Origin: Gemmatimonadota bacterium
GTDB lineage: Bacteria > GCA-2686955
DNA length: 13,419 nt
Direction of reading: 5' to 3'
Assembly (NCBI GenBank): GCA_002686955.1
Contig: NYZA01000100.1
Location: 1-13,419 of the forward strand
This document shows positions 2,662 to 13,412 of this stretch, piece after piece. Position numbers and translations under genes: made by a program. Position 1 is the first letter of the stretch. Each line of letters begins with the position of its first letter. The notes below the pieces were generated by a model. The model was not told the origin of the DNA and made no database searches. It saw only the letters and a list, made by a program, of their open reading frames with translations.

Positions 2662-3873
2662 ATGCCCGAGCTCCGAACCATCGCCCCCATGATTGCCAGT
2701 GTGCTCCTCCTCTCGTCCACTCATCCCGCCCTCGGCGCCGCTGCCGAGGGGCCGGTCGTGGATCTGCCCGAAGAGGACGAACCCTTTCACGGCTCCACTC
2801 CCCACTACAGCCACCGACCTTCGAAGACGATCGTCGGCGGCTACGGTGAGCTCCACTACAACTACGCGAAGGAAGAGGATGCCGACGAGGGCTCCGCCGG
2901 GGTCGATCTGCACCGGCTCATCATCTATGTCGGTCACGAGTTCACGCCGGGGCTCCGGTTTTCGAGTGAGATCGAGATCGAGCACACCCTCGCGGGCGAC
3001 GATCTGCCGGGCGAAGTAGCGGTCGAGCAGGCCTACGTGGACTACGAGGTGTTCGATCGGGCATTGGCGATCCGCGCGGGATTGATGCTGGTGCCGATGG
3101 GGATCGTGAACCAGTGGCACGAGCCGCCCCTCTTCAACGGCGTGGAACGGCCGATGGTCGACAAGCTCATCGTTCCCTCCACCTGGCGCGAGCCCGGGAT
3201 CGGAATCGCGCTCTCTCCCGCGGAAGAATGGCGATTCGAGCTCTACGCGATGTCCGGACTCGACGCCGCCGGCTTCTCTTTGAAGAACGGGATCCGCAAG
3301 GGGCGCCAGGGCGGCGCGAAGGCAGTGGCGGACGGTCTGGCCTTCACCGGGCGGCTCGAGCATGAGCCGTTGCCGGGAGCGGTGTTCGGGCTCTCCGGTT
3401 ACTTCGGTTCTGCCGGAGCAAACGCCGGTCTCGACATCGATGTTCCGGTCGCGGGCGGCACTCTCGATGCGCGCTACAAGAAGCGGGGCATCGAGGCGCG
3501 CGCCGAGGTCGCCTCGTTCTCGATAGGCGACACGGAGGAGCTGAGACTCACCGACGGGGGCAATGGACCGGATGTCGCGTCACGGATCGTCGGCTTTTAC
3601 GGCGAGGTAGGCTACGATCTTCTGGCTCGGAGCGATCGCTCGGAGGCACTCGTGCCCTTCCTTCGTTACGAGCACTACGATACGGCTTCGAGCCTCGACG
3701 GCCGAGACAAGACAGCCGGCGACGAGGCGTACGCCGTGGACGACGTGGTTGTCGGGCTCAGCTTCCGTCCCGTTCCACAGGTGGCCTTCAAGGGCAATGC
3801 GACGATCCGCCAAAAGGGCGGAGTTGCCAAGGGCGAGACGCTCGTCGACCTTGGTGTGGGCTTCATGTTCTGA
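2662..3873 (+). CDS. Outer-membrane porin-like beta-barrel protein
   Basis: This 403-residue exported protein is predicted to be an outer-membrane beta-barrel of the phosphate-selective or alginate porin type. The N-terminus is a signal peptide (hydrophobic core IASVLLLSS at 11-19, small residues near ALGAAA). An acidic linker follows, then alternating amphipathic strands typical of a barrel, such as GGYGELHYNY near 59-68. The protein ends in GVGFMF, so the last residue is phenylalanine, the usual C-terminal signal for BAM-dependent insertion. The start at 2662 was chosen because it gives the signal peptide and has a purine-rich site just upstream. The same frame stays open to 2191, but that extension runs through the inverted repeat and antisense to the helicase gene. 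The FMN-binding gene starts 16 nt downstream, so an operon is likely. The substrate cannot be told. In this setting the barrel may pass an electron donor or acceptor. Confidence 0.8.
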   Translation: MPELRTIAPMIASVLLLSSTHPALGAAAEGPVVDLPEEDEPFHGSTPHYSHRPSKTIVGGYGELHYNYAKEEDADEGSAGVDLHRLIIYVGHEFTPGLRFSSEIEIEHTLAGDDLPGEVAVEQAYVDYEVFDRALAIRAGLMLVPMGIVNQWHEPPLFNGVERPMVDKLIVPSTWREPGIGIALSPAEEWRFELYAMSGLDAAGFSLKNGIRKGRQGGAKAVADGLAFTGRLEHEPLPGAVFGLSGYFGSAGANAGLDIDVPVAGGTLDARYKKRGIEARAEVASFSIGDTEELRLTDGGNGPDVASRIVGFYGEVGYDLLARSDRSEALVPFLRYEHYDTASSLDGRDKTAGDEAYAVDDVVVGLSFRPVPQVAFKGNATIRQKGGVAKGETLVDLGVGFMF

Positions 3874-3889
3874 GTCAAAAAGACCTTCC

Positions 3890-4483
3890 ATGCGTGACGC
3901 AATTCGACAGCGGATCCCCCGGGCGCGAGACACGCTCGGGGCCGCCCTCATAGCTGGCGCACTCGCGACTGCTGCGCCGGCACAGGGGGTCTATTGGACG
4001 AAGGCGGATCTGCTCAAATCGTTCTTCGCGGAGTGCGAGCGGGTCAGCTATCGGACGATCGATCCGAGCCCTTCGCAGGCCGCGCGATTGGCGAAGAGGC
4101 TCGGAGAGCCCGCGCGGGACGCGTACACGGTTTTTTATGGTGTCGGCAAGGGCGGAATCCGGGGCATCGCATTGATCGACGAGGAGATCGGGCAGCACAT
4201 GCCGATCACCTTCGGGGTTTTGGTCGGCACGGACGGAGCCGCGGAGCGGATCGAAGTGTTGGTCTATCGCGAGGCCTATGGAGACGAGGTTCGCGGGCAC
4301 CGCTTCACCCGACAGCTCGAAGGGAAGAGATCGACCGACCGGCTCCGCGTCGGTGATGATATCGATGCAATTTCGGGAGCGACGATTTCCGCTCACTCCC
4401 TCGTCCGTGGAGTGAAACGATGCCTGGTCCTGGCGGAGCTTCTAGTACTGGAGCCAGGCATGGTGGAAGTGCTGCGCCCGTGA
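3890..4483 (+). CDS. Exported FMN-binding protein with covalent flavinylation motif (RnfG/NqrC-like domain)
   Basis: This is a 197-residue protein. Residues 1-33 form a signal peptide (Arg-rich start, hydrophobic LGAALIAGALATAA, APAQG near the cleavage site), so it should act outside the cytoplasm. The C-terminal half is an FMN-binding domain. The sequence DAISGATISAHS (159-170) fits the D-x-(S/T)-G-A-T motif at which ApbE links FMN to threonine in RnfG and NqrC, so Thr165 is the predicted attachment site. No other redox motif is visible, for example no CXXCH. The protein is about as long as a minimal single-domain flavoprotein, unlike RnfG, which is part of a six-subunit complex absent here. 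It lies 16 nt after the porin gene and overlaps the next gene by 4 nt (GTGA). The role as flavin electron carrier is inferred from the motif and context. No apbE gene lies in the window. Confidence 0.85.
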   Translation: MRDAIRQRIPRARDTLGAALIAGALATAAPAQGVYWTKADLLKSFFAECERVSYRTIDPSPSQAARLAKRLGEPARDAYTVFYGVGKGGIRGIALIDEEIGQHMPITFGVLVGTDGAAERIEVLVYREAYGDEVRGHRFTRQLEGKRSTDRLRVGDDIDAISGATISAHSLVRGVKRCLVLAELLVLEPGMVEVLRP

Positions 4484-5037
4484 AGGTCTTCACCGGGAAC
4501 GGCTACCATGTGGCGAGTCTGCCGCTGCCGGTGAAATGTGTCTACACACTCTTCCTGATCTGCATCGCGCTGGGGATCTGGTCGTCGGTGGAGATCCATC
4601 GTGTGCGCGTTGGTGATGCGGATGGCGTCGCGGCGCGCTACGTGGGCGAGAGCGCGGCCTCGAATGGTGTAGCGGCGTCAGGTCCCTCGATTGAGCTTCC
4701 CTTCGGCGACGATTCGGCTACACCCGAGATCGATCTCGAATGGACCTGGATCCTCGATCTCTTCCACCAACATATTTTCTCGATCGCCGTGGTCTATCTG
4801 ATCCTAGCCCATCTGTTCGTGCTGACCGGCCTCCCCCCCGCTTTCTCGGGCGGAATCGTCTTCATCGCGGGGGCGGCGGCATTGGCGCACACGGCCGCGC
4901 CGCTTCTGATCCACTGGAGCGGAGGGCTTCTATGGCTGATGCCGGTGTCGGGCGCGGCGATGGCAATCAGCTGGTCGGTGATCGTTCTGTGGACGCTTTG
5001 GGCGATGTGGTTGGCTTTAGGGTCCGGGCAAGAATAA
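4480..5037 (+). CDS. Four-helix membrane protein with intramembrane histidines, probable redox partner of the FMN protein
   Basis: I do not recognise the family with confidence. This 185-residue protein has four likely membrane helices (about 18-37, 97-117, 123-146 and 149-180), with an acidic extracytoplasmic-looking loop of about 50 residues between the first two. Histidines lie in or at the ends of the helices: H96, H98 and H111 around helix 2, and H137 and H145 in helix 3. That pattern could bind b-type haem, which would make it the membrane electron donor or acceptor for the flavoprotein, but this is inference. The GTG start at 4480 was chosen because it gives a GTGA overlap with the upstream stop and has ggtggaag 10 nt before it. 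An ATG at 4420 in the same frame would add 20 low-complexity residues and a longer overlap. It is the last gene of the operon; its TAA is the first base pair step of the 5037-5100 palindrome. Confidence 0.75.
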   Translation: MKVFTGNGYHVASLPLPVKCVYTLFLICIALGIWSSVEIHRVRVGDADGVAARYVGESAASNGVAASGPSIELPFGDDSATPEIDLEWTWILDLFHQHIFSIAVVYLILAHLFVLTGLPPAFSGGIVFIAGAAALAHTAAPLLIHWSGGLLWLMPVSGAAMAISWSVIVLWTLWAMWLALGSGQE

Positions 5038-5100
5038 CTTGTCATTTGGCATCCCATCTGCACCAGATCTGCGGCACATCTGGGCGCCAAGATGACAAGT
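5037..5100. repeat. Imperfect palindrome at the 3' end of the porin-flavin operon
   Basis: The arm acttgtcatttggc (5037-5050) pairs with gccaagatgacaagt (5086-5100), with a single unpaired base. The 35 nt between them are themselves repetitive, with several cagatct-like pieces. The palindrome starts on the last base of the TAA stop codon of the four-helix protein gene, so it could shape the 3' end of that transcript. It has no T-run and is nearly symmetric, so it also could be an interspersed repeat. Confidence 0.75.
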
Positions 5101-7852: not shown

Positions 7853-9487
7853 ATGTCACGCTCGATCGAAACAGCTCTGCTCGCGGCGCTCCTCTTCGGA
7901 GCCGCGCCCGCTTCCGGACTGCCGGCCCCACCTTTCGAGGTTCCGCTCAGGCACCGCCTCTACCCATTCGTGGCGCGGATTCAGGTGCGCTCCTCCGACC
8001 TGCCCCTATTCGCCCAGAGCCGACCCTACATCCGATCCGATGCCGCCAAGCTGATCCGCTGGGTCGAAAAGCGAGTGACCGAAGGCGCGCTCGTTCTCTC
8101 CGCGGGGGAGGAACACGATCTCGACGCCCTCCGCCGGGAGTTCGCGGCCGAGCTCGGGCGGGATGTAGAGGGCGCCGGCACCGAGCCGTACGCACTGGTC
8201 ATCGAAGAGGATGGGGATCGGCTCGTCCTCGATCTGTACGCCAGCGAGAGCTATGTAGCGGCGGGGGACGAAGCGACCGAGGCACTCGATCTGACCGCAT
8301 CGACGACCACGGTGGGCGGCCATATGAGGGCCACCCTCGGCGGCCGGCTTGCGCTTTCGGCCGATGTGCGCAACACCCGCTTGCAGGGCTCGAGCGGCCG
8401 CAGCACATTCGTGGCGCGCCACGGCCCCCCCTCGACCAAAGCGGGCGAGGAGGGGGAGTTTCAGGATTCCGCCGACGGCTATGCCGCGATCTCCACTCCG
8501 ATCGCCGATCTCTCGATCGGAAAATCGCTGCTCGATTGGGGGCCGGGGCGATCGGGCAGGCTGCTGCTCGGCTCCGACTCCTACGCCTTCGATCAGATCC
8601 GGCTGACCCGCGCTCTGGGTCCCTTGCGCTTCGTGGCGGTCCACGGCTGGGTGCGGGGTGACCACGAGCCCCGATACCTCGCCGCCCACCGGATCGAGGC
8701 GAAGATCCACCCGCGGCTCAGCTTGGGCGGGGGCGAGGCGGTGGTTTACGGGCAGACCGATCGTCTCGAATCGGAGCGTGAGCGCGGCGGGTTTCAACTG
8801 GAGTATCTGCTCCCGCTCTTCCCGCTCCACGTCGCGGAGCACTACCTCGGCGATCTCGACAACAATCTGATGTCGTTCGACGCCTTCTGGCTACCGGTCG
8901 ACGGTCTGGCGCTATGGGGCGAGCTTCTGATCGACGATTTCAACACCTCGCGGGCCTGGAACCATTTCGGGAACAAGCTCGGCTGGGTCGGAGGAGCCCG
9001 CGCCGTCTTCGGCTCGACCGGCATCGATGCTGGGATCGAGTACAGCCGGCTCGATCCCTGGGTCTACACGCACCGCCTGGATGGCCACAGCTACACCCAC
9101 TTCGATCGTTCCCTCGGCCACTGGCTTCTGCCGAATTCCGACGAGATTCGGGGGGACTTGGGATGGCGACCGATCGGAGCGCTGAGCCTAGAGTGTTCCT
9201 TTAGTATTCTTCGCTATTCCGTTGGCCATACGGCGGATGGAATCGGTGGTTACTTCGTGCCGGATACCGAACGACTAGATCCGTCGACCTACGACACACC
9301 GAAAAACGCCTTCACCGGAACGATCGAGACGACGCGCGAGCTCGAATTGCGGGCGGAGTGGGAGCCCTTCTACGAATGCTTCCTCCGTGTCGAGGCGGCC
9401 CGGCTCGAGATCGAGAATCTGGGCAACTCGGCCGGTGAAGATCTGAGCGATTCACGGATCGGGGTCGGCCTCCGTGTGGAGCGTTGA
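7853..9487 (+). CDS. Wzi-family capsule assembly outer-membrane protein
   Basis: This 544-residue exported protein resembles the Wzi capsule assembly family, which forms an outer-membrane barrel that holds group 1 capsule in E. coli. It has a signal peptide (hydrophobic 8-21, then ASG). An N-terminal segment (about 25-105) carries the pattern FAQSRPYIRSDAAKLIRW, common ahead of the barrel in Wzi-like proteins of environmental bacteria. The best family mark is KSLLDWGPGRSGRLLL near 224-239, with FDQIRL after it. Strand-like repeats fill the rest. It does not end in an aromatic residue (last residues GLRVER), which is unusual for a barrel. The ATG at 7853 was chosen for the signal peptide; the open frame upstream is antisense to the NfeD gene. 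It heads an operon with glycosyltransferases, which supports a surface-polysaccharide role. Confidence 0.75.
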   Translation: MSRSIETALLAALLFGAAPASGLPAPPFEVPLRHRLYPFVARIQVRSSDLPLFAQSRPYIRSDAAKLIRWVEKRVTEGALVLSAGEEHDLDALRREFAAELGRDVEGAGTEPYALVIEEDGDRLVLDLYASESYVAAGDEATEALDLTASTTTVGGHMRATLGGRLALSADVRNTRLQGSSGRSTFVARHGPPSTKAGEEGEFQDSADGYAAISTPIADLSIGKSLLDWGPGRSGRLLLGSDSYAFDQIRLTRALGPLRFVAVHGWVRGDHEPRYLAAHRIEAKIHPRLSLGGGEAVVYGQTDRLESERERGGFQLEYLLPLFPLHVAEHYLGDLDNNLMSFDAFWLPVDGLALWGELLIDDFNTSRAWNHFGNKLGWVGGARAVFGSTGIDAGIEYSRLDPWVYTHRLDGHSYTHFDRSLGHWLLPNSDEIRGDLGWRPIGALSLECSFSILRYSVGHTADGIGGYFVPDTERLDPSTYDTPKNAFTGTIETTRELELRAEWEPFYECFLRVEAARLEIENLGNSAGEDLSDSRIGVGLRVER

Positions 9488-10652
9488 GCTCACATGGATC
9501 GCCTGGGCCGTGGCGGCCCTCACCCTTTTTCATGCGGGGGCGGCTCTGTGGTTGATCCGCGGTATGGGTCGATCGTTGCCTGTAGAGAACGAGCGACCCC
9601 CGGTGAGCGTGGTCGTGGCGGCCAGGGATGAGGCGGAAGCGATCGGGGGGTTGGTTGCAGCTATCACGGGTCAGGACTACGAAGGTCCGGTCGAGCTGAT
9701 CGTCGTTGACGACCGCTCCGTCGATGGCACTGCGGACCACGCGCAGCGACACGCGGAATGCGTCGGCTCGGGCCGGTCGGTGAGGATTCTGCGTATCGCC
9801 CACACTCCCCCAGGAGTTTCCCCGAAGAAACACTCTCTCGGGGTGGGCATCGATGCGGCACGACACGAGCTTCTGGCCTTTACCGATGGGGACACGCGGC
9901 CCGAGCCGACATGGATTTCGGCGATGAGCACTCATCTGGGGGACGAGGTCGGTCTGGTGATCGGGCCGGCGCCGATCGATGGGGCGGGTTGGCTGGGGCG
10001 CGTCGCTTCGCTGGAGGCGCTCGGGCTGGGCGCGGTGGCGGCGGGAAGCGCGGGGGCGGGTTACGCACTGACCTGCACGGGTCGGAATCTGCTCTACCGC
10101 CGAAGAGCCCTGGCCGACGCTGGGGGAATGCAGGCGAGCGCGGGATTGGGGGCCGGCGACGACGATCTGACGATGGGCAGGCTGAGGGACGAGACCGAGT
10201 GGCGAATCGTGCATGCGCGGGGGCGCGCGGCGGCGGTGCGAGGGCGGGCGAAGCGCGAATGGGGAGATTGGATCGCTCAGCGCAGACGGCATGCATCGAA
10301 CAGCACGCGATTCGCCCCGCGCATCGTTGCCGGACTGGGGGTGCTCTATCTCTATCACCTGCTACCGATCTTGTTGGTGGGCATGGGGTTCGTCGCTTGG
10401 AATCCTCTCGGCTGCTGGGCTCTCGCGGGCGCGGCCTGGGGGGTCCGCGCGGCGATCGATTGGGGGCTTCTGGCGAACGCGGCGCGCCGCTTCGGTGAAG
10501 ATCCGCCGTCGATCGCGCTCGGGATCGTGGAGCCGCTTTTCAGTTTGATGGTGGTCGTGGTGGCTCCCCTCGGTATTCTTCGCGGCTATAGCTGGAAGGG
10601 CGAGCGTTTCCCGAGAGGCAAAGTGCGACCACCGAAAAAGAGGACGATATGA
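9474..10652 (+). CDS. Membrane-bound family 2 glycosyltransferase, variant lacking the usual QxxRW tryptophan
   Basis: This 392-residue protein has a GT-A catalytic domain between membrane helices (one at about 5-28, about three at 283-370). Visible motifs are VSVVVAARDE near 44-53, VDDRSVDGT at 78-86, the DxD-like TDGD at 137-140, and GDDD at 228-231 for the acceptor-side aspartate. The place where GT2 enzymes carry (Q/R)xxRW reads QRRRH (269-273), so histidine replaces the expected tryptophan. It ends with a YSWKGERF element like the WKGR motif of its downstream paralogue. The GTG at 9474 overlaps the Wzi gene by 14 nt. The next in-frame ATG would remove the first membrane helix. It would transfer sugar from a nucleotide donor on the cytoplasmic side of the inner membrane. 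Sugar and acceptor are unknown. Confidence 0.88.
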   Translation: MWSVELTWIAWAVAALTLFHAGAALWLIRGMGRSLPVENERPPVSVVVAARDEAEAIGGLVAAITGQDYEGPVELIVVDDRSVDGTADHAQRHAECVGSGRSVRILRIAHTPPGVSPKKHSLGVGIDAARHELLAFTDGDTRPEPTWISAMSTHLGDEVGLVIGPAPIDGAGWLGRVASLEALGLGAVAAGSAGAGYALTCTGRNLLYRRRALADAGGMQASAGLGAGDDDLTMGRLRDETEWRIVHARGRAAAVRGRAKREWGDWIAQRRRHASNSTRFAPRIVAGLGVLYLYHLLPILLVGMGFVAWNPLGCWALAGAAWGVRAAIDWGLLANAARRFGEDPPSIALGIVEPLFSLMVVVVAPLGILRGYSWKGERFPRGKVRPPKKRTI

Positions 10653-11848
10653 TGGCGGCGGAATCGCTCTGGATCGAGGGATGGCGCACGCTGCTCTTTG
10701 CGCTCTGCGGGGTGCATCTGCTCTTCGTGTCGGCGTTTTGGTTCGGCCTGGGGCGCTTGAAACGAAACCGCGCGGCGGAACAGCCGAGCGTCTCGATCGT
10801 GGTGCCCGCGCGTGACGAAGAAGCGCTGCTGCCCCGCTGCATCGAATCGCTCCAGCGACAAGAGGACTATCCGGCCGATCGGATCGAGATCATCGTCGTC
10901 GACGATCGCTCGACCGATACGACGGCGGAGATCGTTCGCCAGTACGCAAGGCACGACCCACGCGTACGCCTGGTGCGGGTCGATTCGAACCCAAAGGGGT
11001 ATTCGCCGAAGAAGAACGCCGTCGATCAGGGGATCGCGGCGGCGACGGGTGAGCTGCTCTTTCCGATCGATGCCGATTGTGAGGCCCATCCCAGATGGCT
11101 CGCCTCGATGGTCGGCTGCTTCGCGCCCGATGTCGCCATGGTCTCGGGCTTCGCCGAGCTCGATCGCCCGAACCATTCCGAGCGTACCTTCATCCGGATC
11201 CAGTCGCTGGAGCTGCTCTCCCTCTTCGCTTGCGCGGCGGGATCGACATCGATCGGCTGGATTCTGGCCTCTTCGGGAGCAAGCCAGGGGTATCGACGCT
11301 CGACCTGGGACCAGATCGGAGGATTCGGCGAAATCGGCCCGCTGGTATCGGGCGACGACGACCTGATGGTGCAGCGGGTGGCGCGCCTCGGCACGGGACG
11401 GATCGTCTTCGCGGCGGAGCCCGAAGCGCGGGTCTTGACCGAGCCGATGCGGACGGTGCGCGATTTCTACCGGCAGCGGAAGCGTTGGGGGTCGAAATAC
11501 ACCCATCATCGCCATTCGTACGCTGCCTTCTTGACCCTCTTCTACACCTTCAATCTGCTGCTTTTCTTCTCACCGGTGCTGGTCGTCTTGGCGCCGGGTC
11601 AGGCGTTGATCCCTTGGGTCGCGGCGCTGGCTCTGAAATGGGGTGGAGAGCTGATGCTGCTCCGGCGCGCGGCGATCGCGTTCGGACGGGTCGACCTGCT
11701 GCGTTACTTTCCGATCTGGGCCCTGCTCCATGTGCCGTACATCACATGGATGGGACCGGCGTCCCTTTTCGGCAAGGTGGTGTGGAAGGGGCGTGTCCAC
11801 GGCACGAGGTCGCTGATGGGCGATGAAGAGGGACGGCGAGCCGCGTGA
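10649..11848 (+). CDS. Membrane-bound family 2 glycosyltransferase with complete QxxRW motif
   Basis: This 399-residue paralogue of the preceding gene has the same layout: one N-terminal membrane helix (about 13-34), a GT-A domain and C-terminal helices (about 270-385). Motifs are VSIVVPARDE at 48-57, VDDRSTDTT at 84-92, DAD at 141-143, GDDD at 225-228 and QRKRW at 256-260, all intact. WKGR occurs near 369-372. It shares SPKK, the DxD, GDDD and WKG positions with the upstream enzyme, so the two likely arose by tandem duplication and then diverged. ATGA joins it to the upstream stop; a second ATG three bases later fits the aggacgat site better. The intact QxxRW and helices would allow a processive polymerase role, but homologues adding single sugars to lipids look similar. 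Confidence 0.9.
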   Translation: MMAAESLWIEGWRTLLFALCGVHLLFVSAFWFGLGRLKRNRAAEQPSVSIVVPARDEEALLPRCIESLQRQEDYPADRIEIIVVDDRSTDTTAEIVRQYARHDPRVRLVRVDSNPKGYSPKKNAVDQGIAAATGELLFPIDADCEAHPRWLASMVGCFAPDVAMVSGFAELDRPNHSERTFIRIQSLELLSLFACAAGSTSIGWILASSGASQGYRRSTWDQIGGFGEIGPLVSGDDDLMVQRVARLGTGRIVFAAEPEARVLTEPMRTVRDFYRQRKRWGSKYTHHRHSYAAFLTLFYTFNLLLFFSPVLVVLAPGQALIPWVAALALKWGGELMLLRRAAIAFGRVDLLRYFPIWALLHVPYITWMGPASLFGKVVWKGRVHGTRSLMGDEEGRRAA

Positions 11849-12567
11849 ATCTCGGTGGCGGAGCCTTGTTCGGGTCGGTCGCGGTCGCCGGCGCGGCGTT
11901 CTACGGCCTCGCCGCCACACGGGTCACGCGCCCGCTGCTCTGGGATCGCTTCTACGACCATGTGATCTGGCGGGGATCGACGGCGTCGCCCGCCCGATTC
12001 GCGCTCAGCTTCGACGACGGCCCCGACCCGGAGAACACTCCGCCTCTGCTCGATGTGCTGGAGAGGCACGGCGCCAGAGCGACCTTCTTCATGGTCGGGA
12101 AGCAGGCTCTGAGGAACCGATCGCTGGTGGAGCGGGTGGCGCGATCGGGGCACGAGATCGGCAACCACTCGCTCTCCCACAGGCGCATGATCTTCCTCTC
12201 GCGGACCGAGATCGAGAAGGAGATCGATGCGGGCGCGGATGCGATTCGCGACGCGGGAGGGGGTAGGACGAGCCTCTTTCGACCTCCCTACGGCCTGCGA
12301 GATCCCCGTCTGCTGTCGGCGACGGCGAAGCGCGGATACCGGGTGATGCTCTGGTCGGTGATGCCCTGGGACTGGACGCGACCGCCGGCGACCTGGATCG
12401 AAGGATGGCTGCGCCTGCGGGTGGGCGCCGGATCGATCGTCGTACTCCATGATGGCGGCGGAGACCGCTCCGCGACGGTCGAGGCGGTGGATCGGGTGCT
12501 GCCCGCGCTACGGGAGAGGAGGTTCGAGGCCGTGACTTTGAGCGAGCTGATCGAGAGGCCGGCGTGA
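11845..12567 (+). CDS. Membrane-anchored polysaccharide deacetylase (CE4/NodB domain)
   Basis: This 240-residue protein has an N-terminal hydrophobic segment (about 7-24) that would anchor or export it, then a NodB domain. All five CE4 motifs can be seen: SFDDGP at 55-60 (D57 base, D58 metal), HSLSH at 108-112 (metal histidines), RPPYG at 146-150, a WDW element at 175-177 and LHDGG at 201-205 with the catalytic histidine. The metal triad and catalytic residues are intact, so it should remove N-acetyl groups from a hexosamine-containing glycan. The GTG start gives a GTGA overlap with the glycosyltransferase stop and also with the following gene. A synthase followed by a deacetylase recalls PNAG loci (IcaA-IcaB, PgaC-PgaB), but the protein lacks the PgaB C-terminal domain. 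The substrate could also be peptidoglycan or a lipid-linked sugar. Confidence 0.93.
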   Translation: MNLGGGALFGSVAVAGAAFYGLAATRVTRPLLWDRFYDHVIWRGSTASPARFALSFDDGPDPENTPPLLDVLERHGARATFFMVGKQALRNRSLVERVARSGHEIGNHSLSHRRMIFLSRTEIEKEIDAGADAIRDAGGGRTSLFRPPYGLRDPRLLSATAKRGYRVMLWSVMPWDWTRPPATWIEGWLRLRVGAGSIVVLHDGGGDRSATVEAVDRVLPALRERRFEAVTLSELIERPA

Positions 12568-13412
12568 GGTTCCGACGGCTCGCTCGAGGTTGGCTCTTGG
12601 CCGCGACCACTCTGGGATGCCTGGGGGCCGCGCCGGCTGAACCGATGGCGGTGGTGCCCGAGGTGAGCACCTTTCGAATCGCTCTGGTGAATGTGCCGGT
12701 CGTCGAGGCCAGCCTTGCGATCGAACCGGACTCCCTGGGTGGAATCCTGGTCGAGGGCAGAGCGCGAACCATCGGAATCGGGGGGATCCTCTACCCGATC
12801 GACAACCTCTACCGCGCGCTCCTCGATCCGATGAGCGGGCTGCCGCGCTGGTGGGAGAAGAGGATCGATCAGGCCGATGTGCAGCAATCGTTGCACGCAA
12901 AGGCGAATCGGGAGATCGGATGGGTGGACTACGGGGAGCACGGAAAACGCCCCCTGATCGAAGGCGCGAGCTGGTTCATCGCGGTCGGGGCGACCCTTCA
13001 TCTGGAGTCGTGGGAGATCGGCACGTGCCGCGGCTATCCGCTCGAGATGGAGGGACGCAGGCTGACGATGACGCTACGGGGGCTGGAAGAGGTGGAGCGC
13101 AAAGTGCTCGGACGCACTCGGCGCTGTATCGTGGTCGAGGCTGAATTCTCCGAGCCGAAGCCCAGGGCCGACGATCTGCTCCCGCGGACCGATATGCTGA
13201 CCTACCACCTGATCGACGACGACTTCTCGTGGCGCTTCGTGGTCACGCGGGAGAGTCCATCGATGCTCGCCGCGATCGAGCTGAAGCGCTCCCCGATCTC
13301 GATTCGTGCCGAGCTGACCCGCTTGGAGCGGGGCGGAGACGCGTGGGTCAAACCGCGAGGGGGGCGGAGCTCCCACCGGCGGCGGGGTTCGAAAGCCGAC
13401 CCCCCGCGGTGA
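12564..13412 (+). CDS. Exported DUF3108-like protein
   Basis: This 282-residue protein has a signal peptide (about 8-25, ending near CLGAAPA) and a beta-rich body resembling DUF3108: an early strand pair with VPVVEASLAI, a GRARTIGIGGILYPIDNLYRALLD segment from about 65, a central WWEKRIDQADVQQS portion and the later paired strands ESWEIGTCRGYPLEM and RCIVVEAEF. The first cysteine is in the signal region (LGC), which leaves a lipoprotein possible, but no clean lipobox is seen. The last 25 residues are rich in Arg, Ser and Gly and look disordered. The function of DUF3108 is not established; members are found in periplasmic or envelope settings. The GTG start overlaps the deacetylase stop (GTGA), so it belongs to the polysaccharide operon. 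Confidence 0.6.
   Translation: MRFRRLARGWLLAATTLGCLGAAPAEPMAVVPEVSTFRIALVNVPVVEASLAIEPDSLGGILVEGRARTIGIGGILYPIDNLYRALLDPMSGLPRWWEKRIDQADVQQSLHAKANREIGWVDYGEHGKRPLIEGASWFIAVGATLHLESWEIGTCRGYPLEMEGRRLTMTLRGLEEVERKVLGRTRRCIVVEAEFSEPKPRADDLLPRTDMLTYHLIDDDFSWRFVVTRESPSMLAAIELKRSPISIRAELTRLERGGDAWVKPRGGRSSHRRRGSKADPPR

Follow-up and report, generated by a model that had tools for sequence, protein, structure and literature searches.

The closest described systems to the locus analysed here are those of flavinylation-based extracytosolic electron transfer (Meheust et al. 2021, PMC8238504; Huang et al. 2024, PMC11334425), in which ApbE, an exported FMN_bind substrate and a small membrane partner are found together, frequently with iron transporters as neighbours. 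Flavinylation genes often neighbour iron transporters, and the survey of these clusters recognised groups, including FTR1-linked ones, for which no membrane source of electrons was identified (PMC8238504). The published partners are NapH-, MsrQ-, PepSY-, DsbD- and NqrB/RnfD-like proteins and DUF4405/FezC; the last of these are small His-containing membrane proteins encoded beside apbE or iron systems, and FezC is thought to build heme sites by homodimerisation (PMC11334425). A second point of comparison is provided by the FTR1/P19/Sif clusters (P19-FTR1 of C. jejuni; bfeUO-sifABCDE of B. breve), which contain FTR1, FtsX-like permeases, an ABC ATPase and an FMN_bind protein. In B. breve the FMN_bind protein is SifE, encoded with the permeases and the ATPase beside FTR1, and the cluster is needed under iron limitation (PMC5449479).

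The stretch of DNA that we analysed (13,419 nt; hereafter the window) contains a compact run of three genes that shares the likenesses listed above with the flavinylation systems and differs from them in having a dedicated porin, a word absent from the main texts of both PMC8238504 and PMC11334425. The membrane protein of the run, for whose family we coined the name TM4A, belongs to none of the published partner types by Pfam or profile comparison and has four helices, as against six helices with four His in DUF4405. Set beside the FTR1/P19/Sif clusters, the window has only the porin, the FMN protein and the four-helix protein (TM4), whereas the B. breve cluster is Gram-positive and lacks a porin. 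The features of the run are as follows.

2662..3873, forward strand: porin ORF, ATG start, 403 aa, C-terminus ...GFMF.
3890..4483, forward strand: ORF of the exported FMN_bind protein, ATG start, 197 aa, 16-nt gap after the porin.
4364..4390, forward strand: flavinylation motif DAISGATIS, residues 159-167, with the acceptor Thr165 at 4382-4384.
4480..5037, forward strand: ORF of the membrane protein (TM4A), GTG start, 185 aa, 4-nt overlap with the FMN gene.
4765..4773, forward strand: HxH signature, His96 and His98, early in helix 2; candidate ligands of a heme or a metal.
4810..4812, forward strand: His111, where helix 2 ends on the cytoplasmic side.

The original prediction, made from the DNA letters, was of three packed genes (a 16-nt gap, then a 4-nt overlap) for an outer-membrane barrel with a terminal Phe, an exported flavoprotein with the motif DAISGATIS and a membrane protein with histidines inside its helices. 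All three ORFs lie where it placed them, and each description is borne out: the porin was modelled with 16 strands and ends in ...GFMF, the exported protein matches the FMN_bind Pfam family and carries the motif at residues 159-167, and the HxH pair and His111 all fall within modelled helix 2. The GTG start of the membrane protein agrees with the N-termini of aligned homologues. Structure models and the positive-inside pattern are consistent with the further proposal of one protein for each layer of the envelope (outer membrane, periplasm and inner membrane), and the reported absence of cytochrome c from the set extends to the three families as a whole, in which none of 252 sequences contains a CxxCH heme-c motif.

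Several other elements were seen in the window. Between recD2 and the porin gene, positions 2382-2556 form a near-perfect palindrome of 175 nt (arms of 49 nt at 84%, inner perfect arms of 13 nt, fold z-score -16), at least a dozen full or partial copies of which occur elsewhere in the genome at about 75-96% identity; because of these many copies it looks like a MITE/REP-type element. Just 3' of the operon, positions 5037-5100 include a short inverted repeat (ACTTGTCAT...ATGACAAGT); it is found again in this genome on contigs C143 and C150 and is possibly a dispersed terminator-like repeat. No Rfam families were found in the window. Further downstream, a tight overlapping run at 7853-13412 encodes a Wzi-like barrel, two family-2 glycosyltransferases, a polysaccharide deacetylase and one exported-looking protein, and is probably a surface glycan cluster.

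The FMN protein consists of a single domain, which matches Pfam FMN_bind (PF04205) with 31.5 bits against a cut-off of 22. Its N-terminus is hydrophobic and signal-like and has no lipobox, so the protein is probably soluble in the periplasm. Two of the features on which the original prediction had been staked are present: Thr165 is identical in all 88 aligned module homologues (with Gly163 in 87), and an apbE gene is found in the same genome, on contig C150 (E 9e-71). Since ApbE is encoded in the genome and the acceptor threonine is invariant, the window protein is a predicted ApbE substrate and likely carries covalent FMN. RnfG and NqrC have the same FMN_bind domain and threonine acceptor motif, and we considered whether the window protein might be one of them; this identity was rejected, as the NCBIfam RnfG model gives 30.2 bits against a cut-off of 205 and no rnf genes are adjacent, the Rnf operon being separate, on C150. 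Besides apbE and a complete Rnf operon, that contig carries the one further FMN_bind gene that was detected in this genome, and this Rnf FMN_bind gene beside apbE therefore gives ApbE a second client. After the Rnf operon and apbE, the same region (L027) continues with genes for a multiheme c-type cytochrome, a ferredoxin-like protein and an NrfD-type membrane protein; the genome is therefore not free of cytochrome c. Searching the PDB by sequence with the FMN, TM4 and porin proteins returned no significant match.

The porin has a signal peptide and a C-terminal Phe, and its match to Pfam Porin_O_P (PF07396) is marginal at 22.2 bits against a cut-off of 20.9. The AlphaFold model (pLDDT 70, pTM 0.73) is a 16-stranded barrel which, in Foldseek searches, resembles trimeric porins including OprP (E 1e-13). 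The porin is thus like the phosphate-selective porins OprP/OprO in its 16-stranded barrel and in its weak Pfam match above the cut-off, but the module porins as a group are unlike them in that only 3 of 18 match Porin_O_P and the other 15 do not. Instead, a module-specific motif, N-x2-HEP...RP...PSTWRExG, is kept across 79 module porins including the window copy, and 78 of the 79 end in F or Y. The HEP, RP and PSTWRExG elements that the window porin has in common with the others identify it as the module's own type of porin. This porin may simply be a substrate channel, rather than part of the candidate electron path across the whole envelope.

The membrane protein matches no Pfam or NCBIfam family. 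Its AlphaFold model (pLDDT 72) contains four long helices (residues 16-44, 86-116, 120-146 and 150-181), and charge counts place both termini and loop 2 on the cytoplasmic side and the acidic loop 1 on the periplasmic side, giving a predicted N-in/C-in topology with an acidic periplasmic loop; because this pattern puts loop 1 outside, the HxH pair falls in the periplasmic half of helix 2. Among 85 core TM4A sequences His96, His98, His111, Tyr54 and Gly56 are conserved at 99-100%. His96 is present in 85/85 core and 36/37 distant homologues and His98 in 84/85 and 37/37, while His111 is found in 84/85 core but only 19/37 distant members. The window protein is itself divergent, with about 16-26% identity to its relatives, and lacks Asp137, Trp142, Arg145 and Lys154 of the core family. 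As the conserved His residues lie on a single helix, a bis-His heme would require an oligomer; the HxH would most likely bind heme b across protomers, and a metal site is possible.

TM4A was also compared with known folds and families. A kinship with DUF4405 was rejected (no PF14358 match at any TM4A place; hhalign probability 1.1%), and NapH-, MsrQ-, PepSY-, DsbD- and NqrB-like Pfam domains were absent from the 22 TM4A members checked. Foldseek with the TM4A model returned MAPEG-like bundles at E 0.05-1.4, and VIA-align gave Z 9.6 to styrene oxide isomerase (8pnu), with the tool's level for helical bundles at about 13; SdhC and MAPEG-like bundles were among the structural matches at levels expected of unrelated helical bundles. 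Two variants of the gene were also seen. In L028 (4016-4960) tandem TM4A genes (181 and 82 bits) occur, the first of which keeps His96 and lacks His98 and His111, and this pair might form a heteromer. In two genomes (L042:6078-6557 in G084; L040:6564-7037 in G099) the TM4A slot beside FMN_bind and apbE is occupied by a sequence-unrelated four-helix His-containing protein, which we call TM4B; hhalign detected no homology between TM4A and TM4B, and the member in L040 has a weak cytochrome b561 score (E 0.04).

An initial FMN_bind search had already found porin-FMN-four-helix neighbours in unrelated genomes. A genome contig collection was then scanned with the membrane protein as the sole query, represented by three relatives, since the five seed TM4 sequences together made too diverse a profile for the purpose. 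The seeds had originally been found via FMN genes, so that the choice of seeds is biased and the linkage counts are not. The scan gave 80 loci spanning Dadabacteria, Methylococcales, Binatia and Deltaproteobacteria, with an FMN gene adjacent in 80/80 and a porin nearby in 72/80; several of the 8 loci with no porin stop at contig borders. In a survey spread over the domain TM4A was present in 43 of 386 genomes. Its 37 non-seed regions contained an FMN gene in 26 cases, a porin in 18, apbE in 15 and either FMN or apbE in 30, with varying gene order and strand. The one other genome of the window's phylum that was compared had no TM4 or FMN match. The linkage of the three genes is far above chance, and the co-occurrence that the original prediction depended on is thus conserved across phyla; because this linkage outlasts reshuffling of the genes, it points to a function shared by TM4A, the FMN protein and the porin. 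Among the individual loci, the FMN gene before TM4A at L038:9868-10748 (G058) looks decayed, with an in-frame stop, small fragments and a second TM4-like start, and a porin-FMN pair lies on contig C78 of that genome. About ten Methylococcales module loci (including L062, L063, L067, L092 and L103) have a gene resembling MauG/di-heme peroxidases near the module, and five loci have a small cytochrome c gene nearby.

Iron genes were counted within the stretches fetched around the loci. FTR1 lies near the module in Dadabacteria (L043-L046 and G072) and in G049, G058, L180 and G289; it is linked to the FMN gene in L029, L035, L043-L046 and L180 and stands beside TM4A in L038. In G049 and G058 FTR1, FtsX and ABC genes adjoin the TM4A module, which is the same set as in the FTR1/P19/Sif clusters. 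FeoB is near the module in L166, L167, L172, L173 and L182 (the G030 family and G181, with a weaker match in G360), and Fur in L028, L042, L083, L121, L163, L166 and L182 (G088, G084, G363, G360, G181 and two Deltaproteobacteria). Additionally, a TonB receptor gene separates the FMN gene from the TM4 gene in L032 (G075), and bacterioferritin lies near the module in L040 (G099). Many TM4A/FMN regions carry no iron gene, and in Methylococcales no iron transporter is conserved next to the module.

Fur-box-like sites, defined as 19-mers scoring at least 14/19, precede module genes in 38% of cases in Methylococcales against 8% of control promoters, and in 35% against 5% in other lineages, counts that are not independent because the promoters are related. 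Upstream of the Methylococcales porins (n=51), 39 regions reach 14/19 and 28 reach 15/19, compared with 5.1% and 1.1% of control windows, and the sites mostly lie 64-83 nt before the start of the porin ORF. The best-scoring control promoters are mainly the same sites read from a divergent gene. Sites of this kind also occur in Binatia, Dadabacteria and further lineages. Before the window porin the best score is 12/19, which is not above chance, and no iron gene was found in the window. The genome from which the window comes encodes a full-length FeoB and a Fur-family gene; FTR1 was not found in this assembly, which is 84.5% complete.

Taken with the linkage, the iron-gene neighbours and Fur-box-like sites of the relatives suggest that the three genes most likely reduce iron outside the cytoplasm for uptake. 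We propose that they form an assimilatory ferric-reductase module, Fur-controlled in relatives, and put the probability of this reading at about one half. TM4A would take electrons from the quinol pool and pass them to the periplasmic face through a cofactor (most likely a b-type heme) that the HxH pairs of at least two protomers would hold. ApbE would place covalent FMN on Thr165 of the exported flavoprotein, which would in turn reduce periplasmic Fe(III) complexes. Passage of iron complexes, or of Fe(II), through the outer membrane would be the task of the dedicated 16-stranded porin, and the resulting Fe(II) would enter via FeoB or FTR1, with the operon in relatives probably repressed by Fur. 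In this scheme the heme, the quinol donor, the iron acceptor, the direction of electron flow, the binding of Fur and the cargo of the porin are all what we infer. Judged by its sequence, the window copy would keep the ferric-reductase role, a reading weakened for this copy by its divergent TM4A and by the lack of a nearby iron gene and of a Fur box. That FTR1 was not found in the genome of the window also counts against it. The absence of His111 from about half of the distant TM4A members weakens the ferric-reductase reading more generally, as does the lack of a conserved iron transporter next to the Methylococcales modules.

A possible, if unlikely, alternative is that the same inner-membrane and periplasmic route serves another acceptor, such as a periplasmic reductase, quinone-like or organic compounds, or peroxide, and that control by Fur is part of a broader replacement of heme proteins by flavoproteins under iron shortage. 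The MauG/di-heme-peroxidase-like gene that adjoins about ten of the Methylococcales modules would fit such an acceptor, as would the many regions that have no iron gene, and the replacement of iron cofactors by flavins in iron-poor settings has been discussed (PMC8238504). However, the direct neighbours in unrelated lineages are FTR1, FeoB and a TonB receptor, with no common terminal reductase, and TM4A itself may need heme iron.

We consider it slightly less probable again that TM4A has no redox role and is a small metal permease or an anchor or assembly factor, its HxH binding Fe or another metal, with the flavoprotein drawing electrons from a partner elsewhere, for example Rnf. A single near-invariant HxH borne by one helix is no less like a metal site than like a heme site, the complete Rnf operon with apbE on C150 would offer such a partner, and an accessory role would suit the FeoB and FTR1 loci, where a permease is already encoded. 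Against this, the slot of TM4A is filled in G084 and G099 by the unrelated TM4B, as expected of interchangeable cytochromes, and the known flavinylation-linked membrane partners are often cytochromes (PMC11334425).

Two readings would carry the electrons further out. It is improbable, to our minds, that TM4A is an oligomeric b-type cytochrome of four helices with an HxH site, and as such a new class of protein for transmembrane electron transfer, which, together with a flavoprotein docked at the porin, would provide trans-envelope iron reduction free of heme c, at or beyond the outer membrane. That the porin and flavoprotein carry electrons over the outer membrane by a flavin-based route, equivalent to the Mtr and Pio porin-cytochrome conduits, and reduce extracellular iron or minerals is more doubtful still: the two are linked in most loci, the module porins share strongly conserved motifs and the module has no cytochrome c, but the model of the porin shows an ordinary barrel of 16 strands that resembles substrate porins and is smaller than the 26-stranded ones of Mtr and Pio, a single FMN domain cannot reach from one side of the outer membrane to the other, and in several regions FMN and TM4 genes occur with no porin detected.

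The tie between flavinylation and iron uptake is an already known theme (PMC8238504). What appears to be new is the TM4A family, its constant association with a porin of its own and the Fur-box-like promoters: none of them was found in the open-access literature searched, which yielded no description of an FMN-binding/porin/iron module or of such a module in methanotrophs. Because it stands almost always beside the flavoprotein, in many phyla and in cultured methanotrophs among them, TM4A is a concrete candidate for the missing membrane electron source. The ferric-reductase reading predicts a Fur-regulated bacterial pathway of ferric reduction that can be tested genetically, and for methanotrophs, whose demand for iron is high, the module may provide an iron route that is independent of siderophores.
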